Both the position numbers and the translations under genes were made by a program. Shown here piece after piece: positions 1 through 13,102 of a DNA stretch of 64,000 nt (position 1 is the stretch's first letter; every line of letters begins with the position of its first letter). Source of the DNA: Streptosporangiaceae bacterium NEAU-GS5 (GTDB lineage Bacteria > Actinomycetota > Actinomycetes > Streptosporangiales > Streptosporangiaceae); the NCBI GenBank assembly GCA_017592665.1, contig JAGFNW010000001.1, positions 186,001 to 250,000 of the forward strand. Reading direction: 5' to 3'. Under the pieces are notes generated by a model that ran no database searches, was not told the DNA's origin, and saw nothing but the letters and a program-made list of their open reading frames with translations.

Positions 1-50
1 ACAGCAGGGCGCGTCACCCGTCGAGTGGAAGCTCCCCTAGGATCATGACC

Positions 51-472: not shown

Positions 473-1402
473 TCACTGGCTGAGGATCTCCTCGCGGCGG
501 ACGAGGAGCGAGTCGCGGCGGCGGGTCAGCTCGCCGCAGCGGGCGGCCAGGTCGTTCACCATCGCGCCGACCCACTGCGCGGTCGCCTGCACGGCCTCGC
601 CGGTGCGCGCGATCCGCTGGTGCTTGAGCGCGTCGGTGATGATGTTGTCGAAGAAGACGTCCGCGAACCAGCGGGTGTCCACCTTCGGAAGCTGCGGGTT
701 GGCCGCCACCCCGATGTCGGCGAGCTCGCGCGAGAAGGCGTCGAGGGCCCGCTGCGCGTGCCAGGCGGCCTCGTCGGCCTGGCGCAGGTGTCCGTGCTCG
801 ATCATGTCGGCGAAACCCCCGCCGCCGAACATGTCCCATGTGGACGCGCCGCGCGCGCTGCCGAGGCTGCGCATCACCTGGCCGACCGCGTGCCCGGCGG
901 CCACCCCCGCCTGATGGGCCTCCTGGTGCTCGCGGAGGTCGATGTCGGTGTTGGCGAGCTCGCGCGCGAGGTCGGACAGCGCCCTTCCGCGCGGGTCTCC
1001 GGAGTCGACCAGCAGCCGCTCCTTGCGGGCCAGCAGCTCTTCCAGTTCGCGCGGGGCGTTCGCGACCCCGGCGAGCTCCTGGTCGGCCGTCCGCAGGTCC
1101 TGGGCCAGCCAGTCGCGCCGCGACCGCTGGCCGTTGACGCGCTCGAGGGCGGCGGCCGCCTCGGCCCTCTCGCGGGCCAGCTTCTCCTCCTTGTTGCCGG
1201 TGATCCCGGCGAGGAACGAGCCGAAGCCGCCCTGCTCGAGCTTGGCGACGTCGCGATCCTCCTTGGCGAGCTGCTGCTCGAGGTCGGCGACGAGCCGGGT
1301 GACCTCGCGGATCTGCCCGTTGAGGGTCTCCCGCTGCCGGGTCAGGTGGTCGCGGCGGCGCGCCCGTTCCCGCGCGACACGTATCTCTTCATCTATATCC
1401 AC
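473..1402 (-). CDS. Coiled-coil protein at the end of the lanthipeptide operon
   Basis: Protein of 309 residues, family not recognised. Residues 1-130 or so are Arg/Glu/Leu-rich with heptad-like spacing and should form a long coiled coil. The middle has a Gly-rich patch (GGGG near 190), and the C-terminal third is helical. There is no signal peptide or clear membrane segment. The start is a GTG at 1402 inside the last codons of the upstream ABC exporter gene (10-bp overlap) with no separate Shine-Dalgarno, so translation is probably coupled. The overlap ties it to the transporter operon, but nothing in the sequence gives a biochemical role. It may be a transporter partner or simply a downstream passenger gene. 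Confidence 0.7.
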   Translation of the reverse strand: MDIDEEIRVARERARRRDHLTRQRETLNGQIREVTRLVADLEQQLAKEDRDVAKLEQGGFGSFLAGITGNKEEKLARERAEAAAALERVNGQRSRRDWLAQDLRTADQELAGVANAPRELEELLARKERLLVDSGDPRGRALSDLARELANTDIDLREHQEAHQAGVAAGHAVGQVMRSLGSARGASTWDMFGGGGFADMIEHGHLRQADEAAWHAQRALDAFSRELADIGVAANPQLPKVDTRWFADVFFDNIITDALKHQRIARTGEAVQATAQWVGAMVNDLAARCGELTRRRDSLLVRREEILSQ

Positions 1403-3153
1403 ATGAATCGTGACGTTCGGGCCAGGGCTGCGGTTCCCGGCCGCCAGCGTCCGACGAGCTCGGCGTAGCGCGCGTTGCGCGCCAGCAGCTCGGCGTGGCC
1501 GCCGGCGTCGGCCCCGGACTGGTCGAGCAGCAGCACGGTATGGGCCCGGCCGGCCGAGGCGATGCGGTGCGCGATGACGACCAGGGTGCCGGGGCGTACG
1601 GCGAAGGCCAGCTCGGCGTGCGCCTCGGCGACAGGGTCGAGATGGCAGGTCGCCTCGTCGAGGATGACCAGCCTCGCCCGCGACACGTACACCCGGACGA
1701 GGACGAGCAACTGGCGCTCGCCGCTGGACAGCTCAAGAGCGGGCTCGGTGAGACGGGCGCCGAGGCCTCCGAGCCGGTCGATGAGCGGGCGTGCCCCGAG
1801 CCGGTCGGCCGCGTGCAGAAGTTCCGCCTCGCTCGCCTCGCGGTTGAGGTAGCGCAGGTTGTCCAGCAAGGTCCCGGCGAAGACGTACGCCTCCTGGGGA
1901 ACGAGCGCGACCGGACCGCCGCGGATGACGGGCGCGAGCTCCCCCGCCGGCACGCCGCCCACCCGTACGACGCCGGACGTGGGCTCCTCCACCCCGGCCA
2001 GCAGACCGGCGAGCGTGGACTTGCCGATGCCGCTCGCGCCCACGATCGCCAGGTGGCCGCCCGGCGGCACGGTCAGCGACAGGCCGGCGAGCACGGGCTC
2101 GGCGTGCGGGCCGTAGCGGAAGGCGAGCCCGTCGATGACCACGTCATGGCCCTCGGGCGAGGCGGACCGCGCCGGTAAGACGCCGGGCGGCGTCGTCTCG
2201 GCGATCCTCGTGACCGTCACGGCGAGCTGAGTCCAGTACATCCCGGCCGTCCCGGCGAGCGCGCGCACGGCCGGCAGCAGCTGGCCCGTCACATACGTGA
2301 CCGCGCCGACCAGGGATCCGGTCGTGACGAGCCCGCGCGCGGTGAGGAAGGGCCCGGCGGCCAGCAGCGCGAGCACCGGCAGGTAGCCACCGGCCATGAC
2401 GGTCAGCGTCTGCGCCGTCCCGGCGATCGCGACACCCTGGTTGGCCTGCACATAGCGGGCCGCGGCCTGCTCGACCTCCGCGACCGCGTAGTCGTCCGCG
2501 CCGAGCGCGCTGACGTCGCGCCCTGCCGCCAATACGGCTCCGGCGCGCGCGGCGACCGACTCCTCGGCCAGGATCAGCGCCTGCCTCCGCCGGGCCACCC
2601 CGCGCAAGCCGTACGGCAGGGCCGCGAGCCCGAGGACGAGCGGAGGCAGGACGAGGGCGGCGGCGGCCGGGCTGAGCGCGCCGAGGCCCACGACGGTGGC
2701 GATGAGCGTCACCGTCAGCGGGCGCACCGTCCGCAGCAGGGCGCCGGTAAGCGAGCGGACCACCTCCACCTGCCGGACGAGCCGGGACACCGTGGCGGCG
2801 TCCGGCGTCCGACCCGAGGAGGCGGCCGCGCGCAGGGCGCCGGTGACCACGTGGCGGACCAGGTGGTCGCGCATCGGCTCGACGATGCGGGCCAAGTGCG
2901 GGAAGGTGGCCCGCTCGGCGACCGCGCGCAGCAGGAACAGCGCGCCCGCCAGGCCCAGCCAGGCGAGCCCGGTCAGCGGACGGCCGTGCAGGAACCCGTG
3001 GTCGAGCGCGGCCGCGACGACCAGGCCGGAGGCCAGCGACGGCGCGGCTTCCAGGACCGACCACGCGGCGATCCGCAGCAGCGGGTCCCTGCTGCCGCGG
3101 AGGCCGTCGCGGAGCAACCGCCGCCCGTCGCGGCCGAGCGTGCGGTCAGGCAT
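1393..3153 (-). CDS. ABC exporter half-transporter, second subunit (LanT/RamB-like)
   Basis: 586-residue fused exporter with an N-terminal six-helix transmembrane domain (about residues 20-320) and a C-terminal nucleotide-binding domain. The Walker A is GASGIGKST, the Q-loop VPQ is present, the signature is the divergent LSSGE, Walker B plus catalytic Glu is VILDEAT, and the H-loop is IAHR. No C39 peptidase domain precedes the membrane domain, so it should not cleave a leader itself. Its ATG lies within the end of the preceding exporter gene (8-bp overlap), so the two probably form a heterodimer. The pair resembles the two-gene exporter of SapB-type (ram) lanthipeptide clusters. Export of the four peptides encoded just upstream is inferred from position. 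Confidence 0.88.
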   Translation of the reverse strand: MPDRTLGRDGRRLLRDGLRGSRDPLLRIAAWSVLEAAPSLASGLVVAAALDHGFLHGRPLTGLAWLGLAGALFLLRAVAERATFPHLARIVEPMRDHLVRHVVTGALRAAASSGRTPDAATVSRLVRQVEVVRSLTGALLRTVRPLTVTLIATVVGLGALSPAAAALVLPPLVLGLAALPYGLRGVARRRQALILAEESVAARAGAVLAAGRDVSALGADDYAVAEVEQAAARYVQANQGVAIAGTAQTLTVMAGGYLPVLALLAAGPFLTARGLVTTGSLVGAVTYVTGQLLPAVRALAGTAGMYWTQLAVTVTRIAETTPPGVLPARSASPEGHDVVIDGLAFRYGPHAEPVLAGLSLTVPPGGHLAIVGASGIGKSTLAGLLAGVEEPTSGVVRVGGVPAGELAPVIRGGPVALVPQEAYVFAGTLLDNLRYLNREASEAELLHAADRLGARPLIDRLGGLGARLTEPALELSSGERQLLVLVRVYVSRARLVILDEATCHLDPVAEAHAELAFAVRPGTLVVIAHRIASAGRAHTVLLLDQSGADAGGHAELLARNARYAELVGRWRPGTAALARTSRFMWI

Positions 3154-4864
3154 CGCAGGCCTCCATCCGGCCGATGTGGATGTCGCCTTCGGGCTCGAAC
3201 ACGGCGCGATAGCACGGGTCGGCCCACAGGGTCTCGTGCGGCGCGACCGCGCGGATCCGGCCGCAGTCCAGCCAGGCGACGAGGTCGCAGCGGGACGCGG
3301 TCGCGGCCCGATGCGCGACCACGATCCGGGTCCGCCCGGCGAGCAGGGTGGTGATGGACTCGGCGACCTCGGCCTCGGTCACGGTGTCCAACCCCGAGGT
3401 GGCGTCGTCGAGCACGTACACACGCGCCGGGCGCAGCAACGCGCGGGCCAGCCCCATCCTCTGCCGCTCGCCGCCGGACATGGGCGCGTCGGCCAGCGGG
3501 GTGTCGTACGCGGCTGGTAGGCGGCCGATGAACGCGTCCGCGTGACTTGCCCGGGCGGCGGCCACGACGTCGGCGCGGGAGGCGTCCGGCAGTCCGTACG
3601 CGATCGCCTCGTGCACGGTGCCGCCCAGCAGGCCCGGGCGGTCGAAGGCGTAGGTGACGGTCCGGCGCAGGTCCGGGAGGCTCAGCTCGCGTACGGGCAC
3701 GCCGTCGACGGCCACCTCGCCGCGGTCCGGGTCGGACAACCGCCCGATCAGCCCGGTGAGCGTGCTCTTCCCCGCGCCGGTCGCGCCGACGAGCGCGACC
3801 GCGGCTCCGGCCGGTATGTCGAGGTCGAGGCTGTTCAGCAGCGGCTGGCCCGCGCGCGTCACGGTGACGCCGCGCAGACGCACGGCGCCGGGGCCGGAGG
3901 GCCGTTTCCGGTGTCCGCCGGCCGGAGCGGGGCGGTCCAGGATGTCGGCGAGCCGGCCGGCGCCGGCCCGGGATTCGGCCAGCTCGAACAGGCTGTCCAC
4001 GTGTTCGAGCGCGCCGAGCGCGATGGCCAGATACCCCGTGACCGCCAGGAGCTGGGCCGGAGCGAGCCTTCCGGCCGCCACCTCCAGCCCGGCGACCGCC
4101 AGCACGAGCAGCTCGGTGAGCGGCAGGAGCAGGCGGAACTGCCACACGACGACCCGCTGGAGGCCCCACAGCGCGTGCCCGGAAGCGGCGAGCCTGGGCA
4201 GTGGGCCGAGCACCCGGCCGATCTCCTCGTCCGTGGTGCCGGCCGCCCGGATCGTACGGATCCCTCCGAGCGCGCCCATCAGCAGGCCGCCGATCTCCGC
4301 CTGCGCCTGGAAGTAGCCGCCCTGCGTGGCCGTCGCCCCCGACACGAACCGCCGGGTGAGCAGGACCGCGCACGGCAGCGCGACGGTGAAGGTGAGGCCC
4401 ACGCGCCAGTCGATCCACCACATCCCGGCCAGGGCGCCGAGGGAGGCGAGCACCGAGATCGCCGTGACCGCGGCGGTGGAGGCCAGGTCGGCCGCCGCCG
4501 GCACGGCCTGGACGACCCGGGCCGTGGCCTCGCCCGGCGGGATGGGCTGCCGCCCGCCCAGCGCGAGGAGGTGGCGGACGGTCGTGGTGTACAGCCATCG
4601 GGCGCTCGCGCCCGTCGCCGCGGCGCCGGACAGGGCGATCGCGCCCTCGGCGGCGGCCCCGGCCAGGATGGCCAGGCCGAGCAGGGTGACGGGCCAGACC
4701 GCCGGCCGTCCCGCCAGGGCCGTGGAGAGCGCGACGGCGAGCAGTGCGGGAGTGGCGAGGTTCGCCATGGCGCGGGCCGCCAGGAGCGCGGTGAGGGCCG
4801 CGAGCCGCCCGCGCGCTCTGGCCGCGGCGCTGCGGAGCAGCCGGTCCCCCGGGCCCATTGTCAT
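3146..4864 (-). CDS. ABC exporter half-transporter, first subunit (LanT/RamA-like)
   Basis: 572-residue exporter with an N-terminal membrane domain and a C-terminal ATPase domain. Walker A is GATGAGKST (about residue 360), the signature is MSGGERQR (about 461) and the H-loop is VVAHR. Walker B reads YVLDDAT, so the usual catalytic Glu is Asp, and the Q-loop Gln is missing (AFDRP). This fits the degenerate site of a heterodimeric exporter whose partner, the next gene, has the intact residues. An in-frame ATG exists at 4891, but GGAG lies 8 nt before the ATG at 4864, which is preferred. A hairpin at 4884-4912 separates it from the precursor genes and probably lowers its expression relative to theirs. 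Confidence 0.88.
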   Translation of the reverse strand: MTMGPGDRLLRSAAARARGRLAALTALLAARAMANLATPALLAVALSTALAGRPAVWPVTLLGLAILAGAAAEGAIALSGAAATGASARWLYTTTVRHLLALGGRQPIPPGEATARVVQAVPAAADLASTAAVTAISVLASLGALAGMWWIDWRVGLTFTVALPCAVLLTRRFVSGATATQGGYFQAQAEIGGLLMGALGGIRTIRAAGTTDEEIGRVLGPLPRLAASGHALWGLQRVVVWQFRLLLPLTELLVLAVAGLEVAAGRLAPAQLLAVTGYLAIALGALEHVDSLFELAESRAGAGRLADILDRPAPAGGHRKRPSGPGAVRLRGVTVTRAGQPLLNSLDLDIPAGAAVALVGATGAGKSTLTGLIGRLSDPDRGEVAVDGVPVRELSLPDLRRTVTYAFDRPGLLGGTVHEAIAYGLPDASRADVVAAARASHADAFIGRLPAAYDTPLADAPMSGGERQRMGLARALLRPARVYVLDDATSGLDTVTEAEVAESITTLLAGRTRIVVAHRAATASRCDLVAWLDCGRIRAVAPHETLWADPCYRAVFEPEGDIHIGRMEACDA

Positions 4865-4883
4865 GATCGTGTCTCCGTCCGCC

Positions 4884-4912
4884 GGGGGCACGGGCCGGCG
4901 GCCCGTGCCCCC
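4884..4912 (-). terminator. Hairpin between precursor genes and exporter genes
   Basis: Perfect 13-bp inverted repeat (GGGGGCACGGGCC and its complement) with a 3-nt loop, lying in the 58-bp gap between the last precursor peptide gene and the exporter. There is no U-tract on either side, so it may act as a partial terminator, a processing block or an mRNA 3-prime stabiliser. Such an element would favour precursor mRNA over transporter mRNA. The structure is seen directly; the function is inferred. Confidence 0.7.
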
Positions 4913-4922
4913 ACTTGCCGTG

Positions 4923-5060
4923 TCAGCCGGTCATGGAGCAGGTGGACGTGCACGTCCAGGTGCAGATGACGGCGCACTGGGCGCCGCTCAGCTGCGCCTG
5001 CTCGCCGTCCAGCAGCTGGAGGGCGGCGACGCGCAGGTCGAAATCCGGGTCGGACTTCAT
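4923..5060 (-). CDS. Lanthipeptide-type precursor peptide 1
   Basis: 45-residue peptide with an N-terminal leader containing FDLRVAALQLLDGE and a Ser/Thr/Cys-rich C-terminus. The core begins LSGAQC and continues with Cys every fourth residue (C-x3-C-x3-C-x3-C) and Thr or Ser before most Cys, suiting dehydration of Ser/Thr and thioether formation. A longer reading frame exists from 5129, but GAGAAGG lies 7 nt before the ATG at 5060 and the peptide then aligns with its two paralogues, so 5060 is the start. It is the last of four tandem precursor genes and the nearest to the exporters. No double-Gly leader cleavage site is present. Assignment rests on the neighbouring synthetase and the shared core pattern. 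Confidence 0.85.
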   Translation of the reverse strand: MKSDPDFDLRVAALQLLDGEQAQLSGAQCAVICTWTCTSTCSMTG

Positions 5061-5074
5061 GTCGTCGCCTTCTC

Positions 5075-5212
5075 TCAGCCCGTGATGAAACAGGTGGTCT
5101 GGCACGTCATGGCGCAGGTGGCGATGCACTGCGAGGCGCTCAGGTGCGCCTCCTCGCCGTCCATCGTCTGGAGCGCGTCGATCCGGACTTCGAAAGCCGT
5201 GGTGGATGTCAT
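5075..5212 (-). CDS. Lanthipeptide-type precursor peptide 2
   Basis: 45-residue paralogue of the flanking precursors. The leader reads FEVRIDALQTMDGEE and the core starts LSASQC, followed by three more Cys at exact four-residue steps, with Thr immediately before each of the last three. The start at 5212 is chosen because it aligns with paralogue starts and is preceded by GAGAGG. An upstream in-frame extension to 5284 would overlap the previous precursor gene. It lies 14 bp from the next gene. The predicted product has up to four thioether-forming Cys with Ser and Thr partners; ring topology cannot be read from sequence. Confidence 0.85.
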   Translation of the reverse strand: MTSTTAFEVRIDALQTMDGEEAHLSASQCIATCAMTCQTTCFITG

Positions 5213-5226
5213 TGGTGGTCGTCCTC

Positions 5227-5367
5227 TCAGGTGGTGGTGGCCGCGCAGGTGACCAGGCAGGTCGAGGAGCAGCTGACCGAGCACAGGTTGGCCGACAGCT
5301 GCGGGTCGTCGCCGTCGAGCATCTGGAGCGCGTCGACGCGCAGCTCGAAAGCCGTGGTGTGGGTCAT
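5227..5367 (-). CDS. Lanthipeptide-type precursor peptide 3
   Basis: 46-residue paralogue with leader FELRVDALQMLDGDD and core starting LSANLC. It shows the same four-Cys, four-residue spacing (C-x3-C-x3-C-x3-C) and ends in a Thr-rich tail (AATTT). This is the only one of the four with a Pro (DDPQ) between leader and core, which could matter if the S9 peptidase is proline-specific. The ATG at 5367 has AGAAAGG about 8 nt upstream. Leader residues F-E/D-L/V-R-V/I-x-A-L-Q and D-G-E/D are shared with peptides 1 and 2 and are probably the recognition element for the synthetase. Confidence 0.85.
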   Translation of the reverse strand: MTHTTAFELRVDALQMLDGDDPQLSANLCSVSCSSTCLVTCAATTT

Positions 5368-5416
5368 GTCCGTTGCCTTTCTCGAAGCGGTTTCAGAAGT
5401 GGTCGCGGATGTGGTC

Positions 5417-5578
5417 TCAGCGGGATACGGCGTCGTGATCGAGGCCCAGGTCCGTGAAGTAGCAGGTGTGCATGCCGCAGGTTTCGATGCAGACCCTGGA
5501 TTCCAGGTGCATCTCCGCACTGCGCAGCAGCTGGAGCGCCTGGATGTCCAGGACGAGCTCCGGGGCTTGGTTCGTCAT
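5417..5578 (-). CDS. Divergent lanthipeptide-type precursor peptide 4
   Basis: 53-residue peptide directly after the S9 peptidase gene (4-bp gap). The leader has LVLDIQALQLL, so the ALQLL block is shared with the other precursors, and LDIQ resembles the LDLQ box of class III lanthipeptide leaders. The core differs: it has Cys at spacing C-x3-C-x4-C, starts from LESRVC rather than LSxxxC, and continues into a charged tail (DLGLDHDAVSR). Its ribosome site is exceptional: GAAGGAGGTGATCAC immediately before the ATG matches the full anti-Shine-Dalgarno of 16S rRNA. It may give a different product, or it may be a partner or immunity peptide. Confidence 0.8.
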   Translation of the reverse strand: MTNQAPELVLDIQALQLLRSAEMHLESRVCIETCGMHTCYFTDLGLDHDAVSR

Positions 5579-5582
5579 GTGA

Positions 5583-7283
5583 TCACCTCCTTCTCGCGGG
5601 CTCGGAGACGCGGGCGAGGAAGTGGGCGATCTCGGTGACGAGTGGCCCGGCGTGCCCTCCGATCACGTCGTGACCGCGATCGGGGACCTCTCGATAGGCG
5701 ACCCTCGGGTGGCCCGCCGCGGTCAGCCGATCGACCAGGGCGCGTGCCTCGCCGACCGGGATGACCTCGTCCAGGGCGCCGTGCGCGATCAGCACGTCGG
5801 CGCTGATGCGGGGAGCCAGCACGTCGAGGTCCGGGCCGCCGTGTCCGCCCAGGCGATCGATCATGTGGCGTATGGGCCGGCCGGCCGTGGCGTACAGCGC
5901 GGCCGCCGATCGGAACGGCGCCACCGCCACGCAGGCCGACCACGAATCGGGCTCGGCCGCCGCCGCGAGCAGCGCCAGGAAGGCGCCGTAGCTGTTGCCG
6001 TAGACGGCCGGGGGCGGCGCGTCCGGGGGACGGCCGGCGCGGAGGATGGCGCAGAGCCACAGGATGTCGGCGAGATCGGGGCCGCCCCACTGCCCGGTGA
6101 TCGCGGCCCTGTGCGGCGTGCCATAGCCGGTGCTGCCGCGCTGGTTCGGCGCGATCACGGTGACCCCGGCCTCGGCCAGCGCCTGGAACAGCCGGTCGAA
6201 GCCGACGGTCCAGTGCCGTTCGGGGCCGCCGTGCAACGCCACGACGACGGGGCGGTCATCTCGCCAATCGCCGTAGACCACGGCCTCGATCGGCCCGGCC
6301 GGCCCCGCGAAGCGCTCCGTTCGCCCGGGGTGTCCGGGGCGCCATTCTCCGCCGGGTTCCGCGCAGTCGCGGAGGGCCAGATCCGTGAGCCAGCCGAATC
6401 CGAGCGGCCGGGTGGGCGTCGAGTGCGGCAGCCAGAGCCCTTCCGCGGGCCAGGCGGCCAGCGGGACCAGGTCGCTCGGCGCGAGTGCGACCTGCGTGCG
6501 GGACAGGCTCTCGATGTCGTACAGCACGAGGTCCGAGCGTGCGCCGCGGCCGACGAGCAGGGCGAGCGTGCGGCCCGCCGGATCGAGCGCGACCGGCGTC
6601 ACCGGGCCCGCCAGCCCTTCCGGGCCGTCGATGCGGCGAAGCGGGCCGTGCGCCGCCGTCAGGGCGAGGCGGTGCCGCCCGCCCGTCTCGATCGTGAGCA
6701 GCACCTGGCCGCCGCCGTGCAGCAGGACGTGGCAGGGCTCCGGCGGAACGGGCTCGACCAGCGGGCGGACCGAATCTCGCGAGGGGTCCACGACGACCGG
6801 CGTGGGCCGGCCGTCGGCGACCGTGGTGACATAGGCCCGCGTGGCGTCGACCGCGACCTCCCCGATCGGGCCGGGGAAGCGGGCGATCAGGTGCCGCCAG
6901 GGTTCGTCCTCACGCAGCTCATACAGGGCGGAGCCGGCCACGCCAAGACCCAGCACACCAGCGCGGGCGTATCCGGGCAGCAGCCGCATCGGCGTGCTCG
7001 TCCAGCCCAGCGTCCGGCGATCCCCGCCGGGCGCGATCAACTCGGCCGTCTGCCGTCCGGGCGAGTGCCACGTACGCAGGACCCGGCCGTCCGGGACGGC
7101 GATCACCTGCGCCATCAGCGGACTGCCCGCGGCCTCGGCGCGGAAGGTCAGGCGCGGGCCGGTCCCGGTCATCTGCCAGGCCTCGGCGTATCGGCGGCCG
7201 TCGTCGTGGGTGGCCAGGCAGGCGGCCCGCCGGCCGTCGCTCGAGAAGCGGAAGCCGCCGCGTGCGACGACGGGGGCGGTCAT
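5583..7283 (-). CDS. S9 family (prolyl oligopeptidase-like) serine peptidase
   Basis: 566-residue protein with an N-terminal beta-propeller-like region (about residues 1-310, repeated short strands with VxPDGR and LRxDE elements) and a C-terminal alpha/beta-hydrolase peptidase domain. It has ALHGGPE (oxyanion region), nucleophile motif GNSYGA, an Asp in HGALDEVIP and a His in DRGHDV, completing a Ser-Asp-His triad. No signal peptide is seen, so it should be cytoplasmic. The ATG overlaps the synthetase stop (ATGA), so the two are translationally coupled. Flavipeptin-type clusters use a prolyl oligopeptidase to remove the leader, and that is the best guess here, but only one of the four precursors has a Pro near the leader-core border. 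Confidence 0.87.
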   Translation of the reverse strand: MTAPVVARGGFRFSSDGRRAACLATHDDGRRYAEAWQMTGTGPRLTFRAEAAGSPLMAQVIAVPDGRVLRTWHSPGRQTAELIAPGGDRRTLGWTSTPMRLLPGYARAGVLGLGVAGSALYELREDEPWRHLIARFPGPIGEVAVDATRAYVTTVADGRPTPVVVDPSRDSVRPLVEPVPPEPCHVLLHGGGQVLLTIETGGRHRLALTAAHGPLRRIDGPEGLAGPVTPVALDPAGRTLALLVGRGARSDLVLYDIESLSRTQVALAPSDLVPLAAWPAEGLWLPHSTPTRPLGFGWLTDLALRDCAEPGGEWRPGHPGRTERFAGPAGPIEAVVYGDWRDDRPVVVALHGGPERHWTVGFDRLFQALAEAGVTVIAPNQRGSTGYGTPHRAAITGQWGGPDLADILWLCAILRAGRPPDAPPPAVYGNSYGAFLALLAAAAEPDSWSACVAVAPFRSAAALYATAGRPIRHMIDRLGGHGGPDLDVLAPRISADVLIAHGALDEVIPVGEARALVDRLTAAGHPRVAYREVPDRGHDVIGGHAGPLVTEIAHFLARVSEPARRR

Positions 7284-9967
7284 CGCGCGCTCCCCGCGTG
7301 CGCCGGGGCCGTGACCATCCAGGGACGCGGGCCGCCGTACCGCAGCCGCAGCAGGAAGCCGAGCGCGCCGGACGAGCCGACCTGGTAGTCGACGCGGATG
7401 TCGGAGCCGGACTCGTCCGGGAGCACCAGCAGGCCGTCCAGGCGGGCGTGCCGGGCGTACAGACAGGCGGCGAGCTCTTCGGCCCACTCGCGGTAGGGCT
7501 CGTCGCCGGCGGCCTCGGCCAGGTCGAGCAGGAAGTGCCCGTTGCCCGCCAGCCCGTGGCACACGGCCGACCCCGCCGACCAGCGCGTCCGATAGACCGC
7601 CGCGGCGGCCTGCCGGGCCAGGTCGAGCGCGCCGGGATGGCCGGTCGCCTGCCACAGCCGCAGCAGGAACGTGCCGACGCCCGACGAGCCGCTGCACTGG
7701 TAGTACAGCAGGCCCGACCCCGGCGGATCGGCCCGGCCGGACCGCCAGCGCGCGCCCCACGGCCCGTGTTCGGCCGCGCCGATCAACGTCTCGCCGGCGG
7801 CCAGCGCCGCCTCCAGGCAGTCCTGCCGGTCCGCGGCGAGGGCCAGGTCGAGCAGGAAGGTGCCGACGCCGGCCGCTCCGTGCGCGAAGCCGAAATGGCT
7901 GATGCCCGCGAGAGCGGAGTCGAAGTCCTTCGGGATGGGCCAGTACACGCCGTCCTCGGCGTACTGCGCCGCGGCCAGCAGCCCGTCCGCGCAGTCGGCC
8001 GCCCGGTCGAGGAACACCTCGCGGCCCGTGGCGTGCCACAGGTGGAGCTGCGCCATCCCGGCGCCGGCCGCTCCGTGGAAGACGTCCGGATTCGGCCAGC
8101 GGACCGGCAGCGACAGGGCGATCTCGGCCGCCTCGTCGGCGAGCTCGTCGTCGCCGAGCGCGCGGGCCGCCTCCCACAGCGCCAACGCCGTGCCGGCCTG
8201 CCCGAAGTAGAGGCCGGGGAGCACCGTCGGGACCCGGGGCAGGCGGCGCTGGATCCAGCGCGCGACCCGGGCGGCGACCGGGGCCAGATCATCTCGGCCG
8301 AGGGTGTCGTGCGCCTGGACGAGCAGGGCGAGCACGCCGGCCGCGCCGTGCTGGACGTTGCTCGGCTCGGTCTCGCTTCCGAACGCGCCGCTCGGCCAGA
8401 GCCGGGCCGCGCCGTCCGTGGGGTCCGTGGGGTCCATCGTGGTGAGGATGTGCGTCAGGCCGTCCTCGATCAGCCGGTCGTACGGCACGGACCGGCCGGG
8501 AGACCCGCCTACGTCGGGTGCGGCGAGGAACGCCGAGAGCCGGTCGAGCGTCCATCGGTCCTGGATCTCCACGGCGCAGAGGCCGCGGATGGCCGGGGCG
8601 AGCCGCCGGGCCGCCGGGCGGTGCGCGCCGGCGATGTCGAGGATCAGGCCGAGGCGGTCCACGTCCGGCCGGGCCGGTTCCGCGTCCTCGGAGAGCGCGG
8701 GATTGGCTCCGGTCACGAGGTGGAAGAGGATGGCGCCCAGGGCGTAGCAGTCGGCCTCCGGCCCGGGCGCAGTGCTGGTGGGACCGTCCGAGACGTACTC
8801 CGGAGGGGCGAAGCCCGGTGTGTGAGCCGGGGTCACCCGCCGCCCCGGCGGGGCGGCCAGCTCCGGGTCTATGAGTCGCAGTTCACCGTCCGGCATGACG
8901 ATGATGTTGTTCGGGCTGAGGTCGCGGTAGACCAGCCCGCGCCGGTGGACCTCGGCGAGCAGGGCGGCGAGGCGGGCGGCCAGCGCCACGGCGCGCTCCG
9001 GCGCGAGTCCGGCGTCATCAGGCGCCTCGATCATCTGGCACTGCGCCCATTCGGTCAGCGTCATGCCGGGGAGCCGCGACTCGACCAGGAACGTGTGGTC
9101 CTCCTGGTCGAACACCTCGATCAGCTCGGCGGTCAGGCCGGACAGCGAGCGGAGGGCGGCCGCCTCCCGGCGCAGCGCGGCGCGGGCGTCCTCGCCGGTC
9201 AGCCCGGCCGCCACGTGGGCACGGGCCTGCTTGATCACGACGGTCGTGTCGCCGATCTGGTCGTAGGCGAAGTAGACGCCGCCCCGGGAGGAGTGCCGGA
9301 TGGCCTCGCGCACCACATATCGGCCGTTGAGCAGCACCGGCCGGCCGGGGACAGCGGGAGCGGGCGGCGGTTCCGGCAGCGGCGGCACGGCCCACTCCGG
9401 CGGGCAGAACCAGGGCTTGCGCACGTCGGGCACGGCCGCGCCGGACGGGTCCCGGAGGCGTACCTCCCAGGTCCCGTCATTCGTCAGGGTCGGCACGCCG
9501 CCGAAGGCGCCGAAGCGGTAGTGGACCAGCCCGCCGCGGCCGTACGGGCGGTCGGAGAGGATGGCCGGGCCGGGCAGCCCGGCCGTGATCTCGTCAAGCG
9601 CCTCCGCGACCTCGCGGAAGTGCGCGTCGTCGCGGGGATAGGCGGTGATCACCTTGCCGCACTGCGCCCGGTCGTATCGGCCGCCCGTCATCTCCGCGAT
9701 GTACGCGGCCCGGGCCGGGAACTTGAACGCGCACTCCAGCCCGGCCAGGACCATGGCGGACCGGTGCAGGACCTCGGGCGCCGACAGCGGCGTGGCGGAG
9801 ACGTGTATCTTCCAGCCCTGGACGCGACGGACGGGCTCGGGCGGGTTGGCCCGGCACCAGAAGCCGTCGTCGGCCAGGGTCCAGGCCGCGCCCCCGTGCT
9901 CGTCGAGGGTCGTCCGCACCAGGGTCTGGAACGGGAACTGCGTCGCGGACTCGGTCCTGGCGGCCAC
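7280..9967 (-). CDS. Class III/IV lanthionine synthetase (lyase-kinase-cyclase)
   Basis: Three-domain enzyme of about 895 residues. Residues 1-200 resemble the OspF/SpvC-type phospho-Ser/Thr lyase of LanKC/LanL enzymes (GWKIHVSATP near 51, GKVITAYP near 104, LSDRPYG near 138). Residues 210-500 are a protein-kinase fold with VVIK (K246), YRDLSPNN (D349) and DPE in place of DFG. The C-terminal half is a LanC-like cyclase. The zinc ligands are present: Cys in YYQCSGSSG (about 758) and Cys-His in VCHGLAGNG (about 803-804). Class III enzymes such as RamC lack these ligands and class IV LanL keeps them, so it looks class IV-like. The GTG at 9967 has AAGGGAG 6 nt upstream and fits the promoter mapped upstream; an ATG at 9991 would sit on the predicted transcription start. 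Confidence 0.92.
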   Translation of the reverse strand: MAARTESATQFPFQTLVRTTLDEHGGAAWTLADDGFWCRANPPEPVRRVQGWKIHVSATPLSAPEVLHRSAMVLAGLECAFKFPARAAYIAEMTGGRYDRAQCGKVITAYPRDDAHFREVAEALDEITAGLPGPAILSDRPYGRGGLVHYRFGAFGGVPTLTNDGTWEVRLRDPSGAAVPDVRKPWFCPPEWAVPPLPEPPPAPAVPGRPVLLNGRYVVREAIRHSSRGGVYFAYDQIGDTTVVIKQARAHVAAGLTGEDARAALRREAAALRSLSGLTAELIEVFDQEDHTFLVESRLPGMTLTEWAQCQMIEAPDDAGLAPERAVALAARLAALLAEVHRRGLVYRDLSPNNIIVMPDGELRLIDPELAAPPGRRVTPAHTPGFAPPEYVSDGPTSTAPGPEADCYALGAILFHLVTGANPALSEDAEPARPDVDRLGLILDIAGAHRPAARRLAPAIRGLCAVEIQDRWTLDRLSAFLAAPDVGGSPGRSVPYDRLIEDGLTHILTTMDPTDPTDGAARLWPSGAFGSETEPSNVQHGAAGVLALLVQAHDTLGRDDLAPVAARVARWIQRRLPRVPTVLPGLYFGQAGTALALWEAARALGDDELADEAAEIALSLPVRWPNPDVFHGAAGAGMAQLHLWHATGREVFLDRAADCADGLLAAAQYAEDGVYWPIPKDFDSALAGISHFGFAHGAAGVGTFLLDLALAADRQDCLEAALAAGETLIGAAEHGPWGARWRSGRADPPGSGLLYYQCSGSSGVGTFLLRLWQATGHPGALDLARQAAAAVYRTRWSAGSAVCHGLAGNGHFLLDLAEAAGDEPYREWAEELAACLYARHARLDGLLVLPDESGSDIRVDYQVGSSGALGFLLRLRYGGPRPWMVTAPAHAGSAR

Positions 9968-10000
9968 CTGCGTCTCCCTTCGGAAGTTCATCCGGGAGCA

Positions 10001-10082: not shown

Positions 10083-12982
10083 CTATTGGTCGAGCAGCAG
10101 CAGGCCGGAGCGGATCTTCTCCACGTCGCAGTCGACGAACGCCGACTGGCCGAGTTCGTCGAGCATGGCGAGGGCGCGCCGCCACGACGCGCGGGCCGCG
10201 TCGGCGTCGCCCAGGGCCAGCTGGGTCTCGCCGAGCTTGGCCAGCGAGTCGGCCTCATAGTGGGGAACGCCGAGCTCCTGGTAGTGGCCGAGCGCGCGCT
10301 GGTAGCACGCGGCGGCCTCGGCGTAGCGGCCGAGCGCGTGGTGGATGTATCCCAGGCTGTCCCACGTGTCGGCCTCGCCCTGCCGGTCGCCGATCTCCTG
10401 ATGCAGGACGAGCGCCTGCTCGCAGCGGGCGAGCGCGAGATCGTGGTCGCCGAGGGCCGTGTGGTAGAAGCAGATCATGTTGAGCGTCGTGGCCTGGCCG
10501 GCGCGATGCCCCGCGGCCTGATAGTCCGTGTACGCCCGCTGGGCCTGGTGCAGCGCCTCGCGGTGCCGGCCCTCGCCGGCCGAGGCGTAGCTCGTGCCGA
10601 GCATGGCGTGGGCCTGGCCGACCCGGTCGCCGACCCCCGCGAACAGGTCGAAGGCGCCCGCGAAGTGCGCCTGGGCGGCGCTGAACTGGCCCAGCCGGGT
10701 GCGGGCGCGGCCGATGCCGCGGTGTGCCCGCGCCTGCGCCGTGGCGTCGGCGAGCCGCTGCGCCGCCTCGAGCGCCACCCGCTGGGTGGCCGCCCAGTCG
10801 TCCCAGTGGCCGCGCCGGTTGAAGAACTCCTCCATGGCCCAGGCCAGCTGCCAGGCGTGCGCGTCCCAATCCTGGGCGGCTGCCATCTCGATGGCGGCCA
10901 GCAGCGCGGCGTGCTCCGTGATGAACCAGGCCAGCGCGGCGCCCTGGTCGGACAGGTGCTCGGGCGTGACCCCCTCGGCCGGTCCTTCCACGGTGGGCGA
11001 TCCTGATGCGGGTTGAGCAGCAGCGTGGCCGAATGCGCCGTGTGCAGGTGGTAGTCGAGCAGGCGGCGGATGGCCGCGCGGCGCGAGGCCGCCGCCTCGG
11101 ACGCGGTCACGAGTTCGGCGGCGTACACGCGGACCAGGTCGTGCATCCGGAAGCGGCCGGGATTGGGTTCGTCGACGAGGTGGGCGTGGACCAGGTCGCC
11201 CAGCAGCGACCGCGCCTCCGCCGTGGGAACGCCGGTGAGGCTGGCCGCCGCGGCGACCGGGACGTCCGGTCCTGGATACAGCCCGAGCAGCCGGAACAGT
11301 CTCGCCACCGGTTCCGTCAGGGCCTGGTACGACATCGAGAACACGGCCCGCACGTCGCTTGCCGGATCCTCGCCCGCCAGCGCGTCCAGGGTATTGCGCG
11401 CGCCCCGCAGCTGCGCGGCCAGCTCGGCCAGGGGCACGTCGGGATCGATGGCGGCGTGCGCCGTGGCGACCGCCAGCGCGAGCGGCAGCCGCGCGCACGC
11501 GTCGATGATCTCGTGTACGGCGGCCAGCTCGGCCGCGATCCGCTCGGCGCCGAGGCGGCGGGCCATCAGCCGGCGTGAGTCGGCGCTCGGCAGCAGATCG
11601 AGCGCCAGCGGCCGGGCGCCCTCGATCGCGATCAGGCTGGTGAGCCGGTTTCTGCTGGTCACCAGCGCGAAGCAGCGGCGGGCCCCGGGCAGCAGCGGGC
11701 GCACCTGGTCGGCGTCGCGGGCGTTGTCCAAGATGAGCAGCACGCTCTTGTCGGCGAGCACGCTCCGATATAACCCGGTGAGCGCGCTCGGGGACGTCGG
11801 CATCTGCTGCGGCGGCACCCCGAGGGCGTCGAGGAATCCCTCCATCACCTCGACCGGCTTCAACGGCGCGCCGACCGGGTCGAAGCCGCGGAGGTTCACA
11901 TAGAGCTGGCCGTCGGCGAACCGGTCGCGGACCCGGTGCCCCCAGTGCACGGCGAGCGCCGTCTTCCCCACGCCGGCCATGCCGGAGATGGTGGCGATGG
12001 CGACCGGCGAGCCGCCGTCCGGCCCGGTCTCCAACAGGGCGTCGAGCCTGGTCAGCTGCTCGGCCCGGCCCGTGAAGGCGGGCACGTCGGCGGGCAGCTG
12101 CGCGGGGGTCGGGCGGCGGTGCGCCGGGACGACGGGCGCGATGGGAGCAACGGGACTCGCGGGGGCGGCGGGCGTTTCGGCGGGCGGGCTCGGGGATGGC
12201 CGGATCTCGGTGGTCCAGGCGTTGACGGGCGCCACGTCGTCGCGGAGCAGCGCGGCGTGGGCGGCGGCGAGGTCGGCGCCCGGATCGACGCCGAGTTCTT
12301 CGATGAGCCGCTCGCGCATGGCGTGGTAGGCGGCGAACGCCCGGGACCGCTGGCCGGCCGCGCCGTACGCGCGGATGAGCCTGGCCCACGCCGCCTCGTC
12401 CAGCGGCTGGCCGGCCGCGGCCTCCTCCAGGGCGAGCACGGCCTCGTCGGTGGCGCCGGTGGCCAGCATCGCCTCGCCGTACTGGGCGAGGGCCGTGCGC
12501 CGCTGCTCGGCGAGCGCCGTCACCTTGGGGTGCCCGGCCAGCGCCGGTATGTCGGCGAGCGGCGCGCCTCGCCACAGCCGCAGCGCCTCCGCGAGCAGCG
12601 CCGTGACCTGCCGGAAGTCCCCGTGCCGCTGGCTGGCCGTGGCGTTGGTGACGAGGGCGTGGAAGCGGGACAGGTCGAGATCGACCCCGGCCAGCTCCAG
12701 CGCGTAGCCGTCGCCCACCATCGGCAGGATGGTGCTGCGCGCATACGACGGACGGTCGGGCTCCAGGGCGTGGCGCAGGTGCTTGACCCTGGTCTGGATC
12801 ATGTTCGTGGCGCTGGGCGGCGGCCGTTCGCCCCACAGGGCCTGGATCAGCTCGCCCCTCGACAGCGGCTGGCCGCCCGCGAGGGCCAGCAGGCCGAGGA
12901 CCGCGCGCTGCCCCGCCGACCCGATGTCGACCGGGGCTTCGCCCCGCCATATCCTGACCGGGCCGAGTATCTGGACGCGCAT
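10083..12982 (-). pseudogene. SARP/AfsR-type regulator interrupted by a frameshift
   Basis: Regulator of about 966 residues if restored. It has an OmpR-like winged helix (about 1-95), a bacterial transcriptional activation domain (about 100-245), an NB-ARC ATPase with P-loop GMAGVGKTAL and LILDNA Walker B, and C-terminal TPRs. The reading frame shifts near 10990-11005: the first frame gives the AfsR-like LLDYHLHTAHSATLLLNPHQD and then nonsense, while the adjacent frame gives EGVTPEHLSDQGAALAWF and the TPR array to 10083. The span of 2900 nt is one base short of a multiple of three, so a single lost base explains it. This could be genuine or a sequencing error. GGGAGG 6 nt before the ATG at 12982 supports that start over 13087. 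It is the likely activator of the synthetase operon. Confidence 0.8.
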
Positions 12983-13019
12983 GCCCGCCTCCCGCCGCAC
13001 ACGATTCGCCGGTGCGGCG

Positions 13020-13062
13020 ACCAGTCGACAACCAGTCGCCTGCCAATCAAGCAGGTTAACGT
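13020..13062 (+). promoter_or_regulatory. Candidate SARP-dependent promoter of the small secreted peptide gene
   Basis: Three heptamers read on the plus strand with exact 11-bp period: ACCAGTC (13020-13026), ACCAGTC (13031-13037) and GCCAATC (13042-13048). Eight bases later is TAACGT (13057-13062), a good TANNNT -10. This matches the canonical SARP promoter geometry and has the same orientation relative to its gene as the synthetase promoter. It also lies 38-66 bp upstream of the SARP start on the other strand, so autoregulation is possible. Confidence 0.65.
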
Positions 13063-13102
13063 CAACCGACCCGAAAACAACTGACACGATCTAGGGCATC
13101 CC

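Follow-up and report, generated by a model that had tools for sequence, protein, structure and literature searches.

In the venezuelin system, the LanL enzyme VenL dehydrates its precursor with its kinase and lyase domains and closes the rings with its cyclase domain (PMC2843593). Tandem mass spectrometry of variants led to the assignment of three venezuelin rings, Cys34-Dhb39, Cys45-Dha49, and Cys32-Dhb43 (Dhb, dehydrobutyrine; Dha, dehydroalanine), as Cys-first and of one ring in the opposite direction, and the authors ask for confirmation of the rings by nuclear magnetic resonance (PMC2843593). Since three of the four rings are Cys-first, this direction of closure is within the reach of a class IV enzyme. 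Here, we analyse a lanthipeptide cluster with a LanL and four tandem precursor peptides (A to D) in a stretch of 64,000 nucleotides, hereafter the window, of Streptosporangiaceae bacterium NEAU-GS5 (GCA_017592665.1, contig JAGFNW010000001.1, positions 186,001 to 250,000 of the forward strand). Judging from its genes, the cluster probably makes peptides of consecutive small Cys-first rings without linkers.

Among the described systems, venezuelin resembles this locus by a LanL that combines lyase, kinase, and zinc cyclase domains, its short precursor, and the predominance of Cys-first rings (three of four); it differs from our model because its rings, as presented in PMC2843593, are overlapping and globular, one of them forward and none in tandem. 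Venezuelin-like cores (TCxCxGLLTLLNTxCxGxSC-like) do occur in the loci we fetched, lack the repeated unit described below, and belong to LanLs in a separate part of the tree. No such core is present in A to D, and the LanL of the window falls elsewhere in the tree than the venezuelin-like LanLs. SflA is also of class IV and has two non-interlaced rings, but only two, and is set apart on the description of a review (PMC8358304). The refactored class IV products of Chondromyces crocatus and Streptomyces sp. DvalAA-43 contain one or two (methyl)lanthionines; going by their description (PMC9576775), they differ in having one ring, or two that possibly overlap. In class II, the prochlorosins and nostolysamides (ProcM clade) are cyclised both ways and Cys-first rings are known; the enzymes of this clade are LanMs with a three-Cys zinc site (PMC13060382), whereas the LanL of the window has Cys/Cys/His. 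Word searches of the open literature, with closed papers, supplements, and peptide databases outside their scope, revealed neither a product built as a CxxT array nor one with the core of the window.

The synthetase and its four precursors

The genes on which the argument rests are all on the minus strand:

7280..9991, minus strand: class IV lanthionine synthetase LanL, with RamC_N, kinase, and LanC-like domains (NF038150, Pfam, zinc-ligand columns)
5417..5578, minus strand: precursor D, open reading frame (ORF) of 53 aa, same leader type as the others; core CIET-CGMHT-CYFT, then a tail
5227..5367, minus strand: precursor C, ORF of 46 aa; core LSANL-CSVS-CSST-CLVT-CAAT-TT, a pure (CxxS/T)4; NF038157, 18.2 bits
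5075..5212, minus strand: precursor B, ORF of 45 aa; core LSASQ-CIAT-CAMT-CQTT-CFIT-G, a pure (CxxT)4
4923..5060, minus strand: precursor A, ORF of 45 aa; leader motif ALQLL; core LSGAQ-CAVI-CTWT-CTST-CSMT-G; NF038157, 12.7 bits

A first-pass annotation, made from the sequence of the window, had proposed a lanthipeptide cluster with a lyase-kinase-cyclase synthetase, and the models, domains, and zinc ligands all agree with it. The synthetase scores 1019.4 bits on the NCBIfam LanL model NF038150 (cut-off 650) and has the RamC_N, Pkinase, and LANC_like domains of Pfam. Its aligned zinc ligands are Cys766, Cys811, and His812. Both Cys are conserved throughout the alignment of 95 LanLs, whose third ligand position holds His in 92 sequences and Cys in the other 3. 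Class III LanKC enzymes lack the zinc ligands. Membership of class III (labionin) was rejected because these ligands are present and the class III score (452.1 bits) is under its cut-off of 575; inspection by eye of A to D found no SxxSxxxC labionin motif. Near the synthetase, A to D each have a leader followed by a core rich in Ser, Thr, and Cys. All four leaders carry the ALQ motif of the class IV family NF038157 (the ALQxL family), shared here as ALQxx, with model scores under the cut-off of 19 for C and A and with B and D not listed. On this evidence from sequence the cluster belongs to the class IV lanthipeptides, and a product with (methyl)lanthionine is predicted.

The annotation had also described four tandem precursors of 45 to 53 residues, three of them with LSxxxC followed by Cys at every fourth residue and Thr or Ser before most Cys. 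The lengths are indeed 45, 45, 46, and 53 aa; A, B, and C have LSxxxC and then C-x3-C-x3-C-x3-C in their translations, with Ser or Thr before 8 of their 12 Cys, and D does not fit. A purine-rich stretch resembling a Shine-Dalgarno sequence precedes, by eye, the ATG of each gene. Three ORFs of the window end in CxxxCxxxCxxxC and two in four CxxS/T units, and 60 first-order Markov copies of it contain neither kind, so that the pattern is not due to chance. A precursor profile searched against the genome at E ≤ 0.05 matched A to D and nothing else (21 of the 40 first-look candidates were scored). Since the Markov copies are empty and the genome-wide profile matches only these four, the description of the precursors is correct. 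Their unannotated state is ordinary: in one survey, 86% of class IV precursors were unannotated and 83% were the sole one predicted in their cluster (PMC7268733). Four precursors are at the high end, and several of the fetched loci also have three or four.

A repeated C-x-x-[T/S] unit

A scan of genome contigs revealed relatives of this LanL in Acrocarpospora phusangensis (74% identical), with three close precursor relatives beside the synthetase, and in Streptomyces sp. TP-A0874 (53%). At E ≤ 1e-100, LanL relatives are present in 67 of the 297 genomes searched from the same family and in 15 of the 394 from the same class, counts that include the genome of the window itself. We took a subset of these hits as regions, 60 in a first round and 36 in a later one; the late regions L177 to L179 were picked by a precursor profile search, and L179 held no LanL. 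The locus L054, whose peptides are those of the Acrocarpospora locus L009, was taken to be identical with it. A first set of precursors came from 90 candidate ORFs, 87 of them unique. One was dropped as a false hit, 53 were assigned to S9-linked LanL loci and are called the S9 group here, and the remainder were counted apart (10 'CC', 12 'MSF', 3 venezuelin-like, and 8 others). Reduction of the S9 group at 60% core similarity left 35 non-redundant precursors.

The Acrocarpospora cores are CIST-CSST-CTVT-CTIT, CAAI-CINT-CTTT-CVCT, and CIAT-CTVT-CQTT-CTIT, which, with those of the window, suggests that the conserved element is a C-x-x-[T/S] tetrad. The same unit pervades the S9 group. Across the 35 precursors, Ser or Thr stands immediately before 96 of the 106 non-first Cys (mean 36.9 and maximum 53 in 2000 shuffles) and before none of the 35 first Cys; the third residue beyond the last Cys is also Ser or Thr in 27 of the 35 (shuffle mean 11.6, maximum 20). 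When all 53 precursors are considered, 143 of 160 internal units end in Ser or Thr directly before Cys, and internal units of 4, 5, 6, and 7 residues occur 90, 28, 18, and 7 times. Precursor D obeys this grammar without forming a strict ladder (Cys spacings of 4 and 5). Five non-redundant peptides of the 'other' category meet the unit rule at 10 of their 11 non-first Cys. The Cys period of A to C is thus a consequence of the C-x-x-[T/S] unit, which is common to D and, with variable length, to most relatives in the S9 group.

We had considered that the strict ladder might be private to the window and Acrocarpospora, and rejected this. It occurs in 12 of 123 precursors, at seven loci including the window, and (CxxS/T)4 occurs in 10 of 123. 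Besides the window and L054, the loci with one or the other are L065, L082, L112, L160, and L177, and 6 of the 12 strict ladders lie in these five. The core of the window is therefore a clean case of a wider pattern rather than a singular one, which narrows its own novelty and leaves the argument on ring direction unaffected. The first-pass annotation had regarded the core as unusual for its periodicity and had imagined a ladder of i,i+4 thioether partners along one helical face. The periodicity is real, but what repeats is a Cys-x-x-Thr/Ser unit and not a ladder of Cys. Thioethers link Cys to dehydrated Ser or Thr, not Cys to Cys, so a Cys-Cys ladder is unsupported; the variation of unit length from 4 to 7 among relatives argues against a helix requirement, and we discarded the helical-face arrangement on this ground.

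The tree of the 95 LanLs pairs the window with L054 as its sister (support 100) and places L112 (93) and L010 (100) beside them; the precursors of L112 and L010 also show the unit grammar. A profile built from the seven precursors of the window and Acrocarpospora has matches in 26 of 341 genomes of the family at E ≤ 0.05; below 1e-19 these are restricted to the genome of the window and the Acrocarpospora-like G456. Two further observations concern the diversity of cores. Two (CxxT)3 precursors lie about 1.9 to 2.1 kb behind the LanL of L172, in a genome from a different family of the class, and in L111, L093, and L095 the precursor cores open with a CC pair, a different core type beside related LanLs.

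Direction of ring closure

For each Cys, we searched for a Ser or Thr of its own 3 to 5 residues downstream or upstream and compared the outcome with shuffled sequences. Downstream, every Cys is served in 32 of the 35 peptides (5.0 in shuffles), amounting to 137 of 141 Cys (shuffle mean 88.6, maximum 98). Upstream pairing is at chance, with all Cys served in 4 of 35 peptides (4.2) and 76 of 141 Cys overall (mean 80.9, maximum 90); at a distance of exactly 3 residues it reaches 21 of 141 Cys, below the shuffle mean of 38.2. If rings are required not to overlap, all Cys are served in 30 of 35 peptides downstream (shuffle mean 2.7) and in 2 of 35 upstream (3.3). The result holds when the four peptides of the window are removed (downstream 122 of 126 Cys, mean 77.4, maximum 91; upstream 65 of 126, mean 70.1). 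Conventional forward rings were rejected because upstream pairing is no better than in shuffles.

The later regions provided 10 S9-linked non-venezuelin peptides, 7 of them non-redundant among themselves, of which 3 come from L177, picked by its likeness to the window. Downstream pairing serves 25 of their 27 Cys (mean 15.2, maximum 22) and upstream pairing 14 of 27 (13.8). The four peptides outside L177 give 13 of 15 Cys downstream (mean 8.3; equalled in 1 of 500 shuffles) and 6 of 15 upstream (5.9); the five that are not redundant with the first set give 17 of 19 (mean 10.6, maximum 15) and 10 of 19 (9.1). This later test is small but agrees with downstream pairing. As for the other core types, none of the 4 venezuelin-like and none of the 10 MSF-type peptides has complete reverse (Cys-first) pairing, and 2 of the 9 CC-type peptides do; the CC type lies slightly above its shuffle mean (31 of 40 Cys served, against 26.6, maximum 33).

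These statistics suggest the following scheme. LanL would phosphorylate and then eliminate the Thr or Ser that closes each unit, and its zinc cyclase would add the Cys opening the unit onto the dehydrated residue of the same unit. Each C-x2-4-[T/S] unit would give one small ring with Cys at its N-terminal and the dehydro residue at its C-terminal side, opposite to most lanthipeptides. Successive rings would abut without a linker, because the Thr or Ser stands directly before the next Cys. A, B, and C would thus have three or four consecutive four-residue rings, and D three rings. Finally, the S9 peptidase would remove the leader and the paired ABC exporter would secrete the product. Since the LanL of the window has Cys/Cys/His, the direction would not be dictated by a three-Cys site if this model holds.

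Several points weigh against this scheme. The S9 group was separated from the other core types only after the sequences had been inspected, and 14 of its 53 peptides fail a complete parse (39 parse completely). The later set is small, L156 misfits, L169 fits partly, and all Cys are served in 2 of 4 peptides. For the seven peptides of the window and Acrocarpospora by themselves, the signal is weaker (26 of 28 Cys served downstream, shuffle mean 20.3, maximum 25). As a control, we analysed six class I/II lantibiotic cores: the known forward direction is favoured, but within the shuffle range, both at 3 to 5 residues (forward 18 of 25 Cys, mean 14.8, maximum 21; reverse 10 of 25, mean 10.5) and at 3 to 7 (forward 21 of 25, mean 18.6, maximum 23; reverse 14 of 25, mean 13.1). 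The nearly constant zero linker is not demanded by separate rings, and the model does not account for it. The remaining points concern the first Cys. In A and in one Acrocarpospora peptide, unit 1 ends in Ile, leaving Cys1 without a Thr at +3. In addition, Ser is retained four residues ahead of Cys1 in each of A, B, and C, a possible forward partner, and Ser or Thr is found at -4 or -5 in 20 of the 35 precursors (window included).

The last observation fits rings closed in the conventional direction and overlapping, in which the Ser of LS would join Cys1 and each unit Thr the second Cys that follows it (T-C-x-x-T-C, i,i+5), so that the rings would interlock as a ladder. Most lanthipeptides close this way, as noted in PMC13060382, and LS is present in A to C. 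We nevertheless regard this arrangement as unlikely: it leaves Cys2 and the last Thr unpaired, offers no account of the Ser or Thr that follows the last Cys at +3 in most peptides (27 of 35), lacks any Ser or Thr at -1 to -5 of Cys1 in two of the three Acrocarpospora precursors, and conflicts with the chance level of complete upstream pairing and its deficit at exactly 3 residues. We give a marginally lower probability, still in the unlikely range, to a mixture of directions as in venezuelin (PMC2843593), where the first ring would close forward from an upstream Ser or Thr and the rest Cys-first, or where longer-range pairs would join units. It would suit A and the Acrocarpospora peptide without a unit-1 Thr, in which Cys1 is preceded by Ser at -4 and Thr at -3, respectively, but B and C carry the upstream Ser together with a complete unit 1, so that its presence does not track need. 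Moreover, 13 of the 35 precursors have no Ser or Thr at -3 to -5, and non-overlapping Cys-first rings already serve all Cys in 30. The Acrocarpospora peptide at +1995 of the LanL in L054 is the one that combines an Ile-ending unit 1 with a Thr three residues ahead of Cys1. In the remaining two, unit 1 is complete and no Ser or Thr occurs at -1 to -5. The hint that the first ring closes the other way is weak, given the upstream Ser of B and C.

It is very improbable that the Cys/Thr repeats are processed otherwise, into disulfides, radical-SAM (S-adenosylmethionine) thioethers of C-x-x-x repeats, or labionin-type carbacycles. Precursor C does match the radical-SAM target repeat model TIGR04114, weakly (13.5 bits against a cut-off of 20). 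Yet the operon contains a complete LanL of class IV, zinc ligands included, no radical SAM domain was found among the 9 and 10 window proteins scanned with Pfam (part of the ORFs of the window), and the by-eye inspection of A to D for SxxSxxxC was negative.

Leader removal and neighbouring genes

The cluster reads, along the minus strand, SARP/AfsR-like regulator, LanL, S9 peptidase, precursors D-C-B-A, and two ABC exporters (from ORFs and Pfam). The neighbours of the genes listed above are:

10083..13087, minus strand: SARP/AfsR-like regulator, upstream of LanL (BTAD and NB-ARC domains)
5583..7283, minus strand: S9 serine peptidase, probable leader protease (PF00326, 76.2 bits)
3146..4891, minus strand: ABC exporter with membrane and ATPase domains, probably exporting the product (Pfam, conserved order)
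1393..3153, minus strand: second ABC exporter, probable partner half-transporter (Pfam, conserved order)

These coordinates place the precursors between the S9 peptidase and the ABC exporters, as the annotation had them. It had also put them next to the synthetase, which is in the cluster but separated from them by the S9 gene, whose start shares 4 bases with the end of LanL. This organisation is frequent: the S9 gene is on the strand of LanL in 41 of 63 rows (the window and the duplicate L009 among them), and the exporter pair follows it in the order of the window in 31 of these 41.

The nearest solved relatives of the S9 protein, in a sequence search of the PDB, are acylaminoacyl peptidases. 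In the 35 precursors, Pro lies just after the leader motif in 27 and directly before Cys1 in 17. The latter position (e.g., L065, L078, L087) would let a post-proline protease release the core exactly at Cys1. Between the leader motif and Cys1, A and D have no Pro and C has one (DDPQLS); B has no proline in the whole peptide. Post-proline cleavage of the FlaP/LanPB type was thus rejected as a general rule for the window, and another cleavage preference is expected, given B and the acylaminoacyl peptidase relatives.

The regulator is split over two frames, with a switch at about 10,957 to 10,997, and its Acrocarpospora relative (L009) runs through a single open frame (tblastn). The switch reflects either an error in the draft assembly or a true frameshift, and the latter could silence the cluster. 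The genome also encodes a second, distant LanL/LanKC-like protein (L002, G000:C34:125043-126950), an open frame of 873 aa with 30% identity over residues 37 to 667.

A possible branch of class IV lanthipeptides

Taken together with its relatives, the locus may represent a widespread undescribed branch of class IV, with cores made solely of consecutive linker-free Cys-first rings, of which (CxxT)4 would be the simplest, closed by an ordinary Cys/Cys/His LanL; we consider the chances of this evenly balanced. If it is true, reverse ring closure would not need a three-Cys site of the ProcM type. If the Cys-first model is right, the positions of rings in many uncharacterised class IV precursors could be read from sequence. 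The (CxxT)n cores would be near-digital natural substrates for studying how LanC-type cyclases choose direction and string rings together, and their modular unit would be easy to lengthen, shorten, and vary in peptide engineering.

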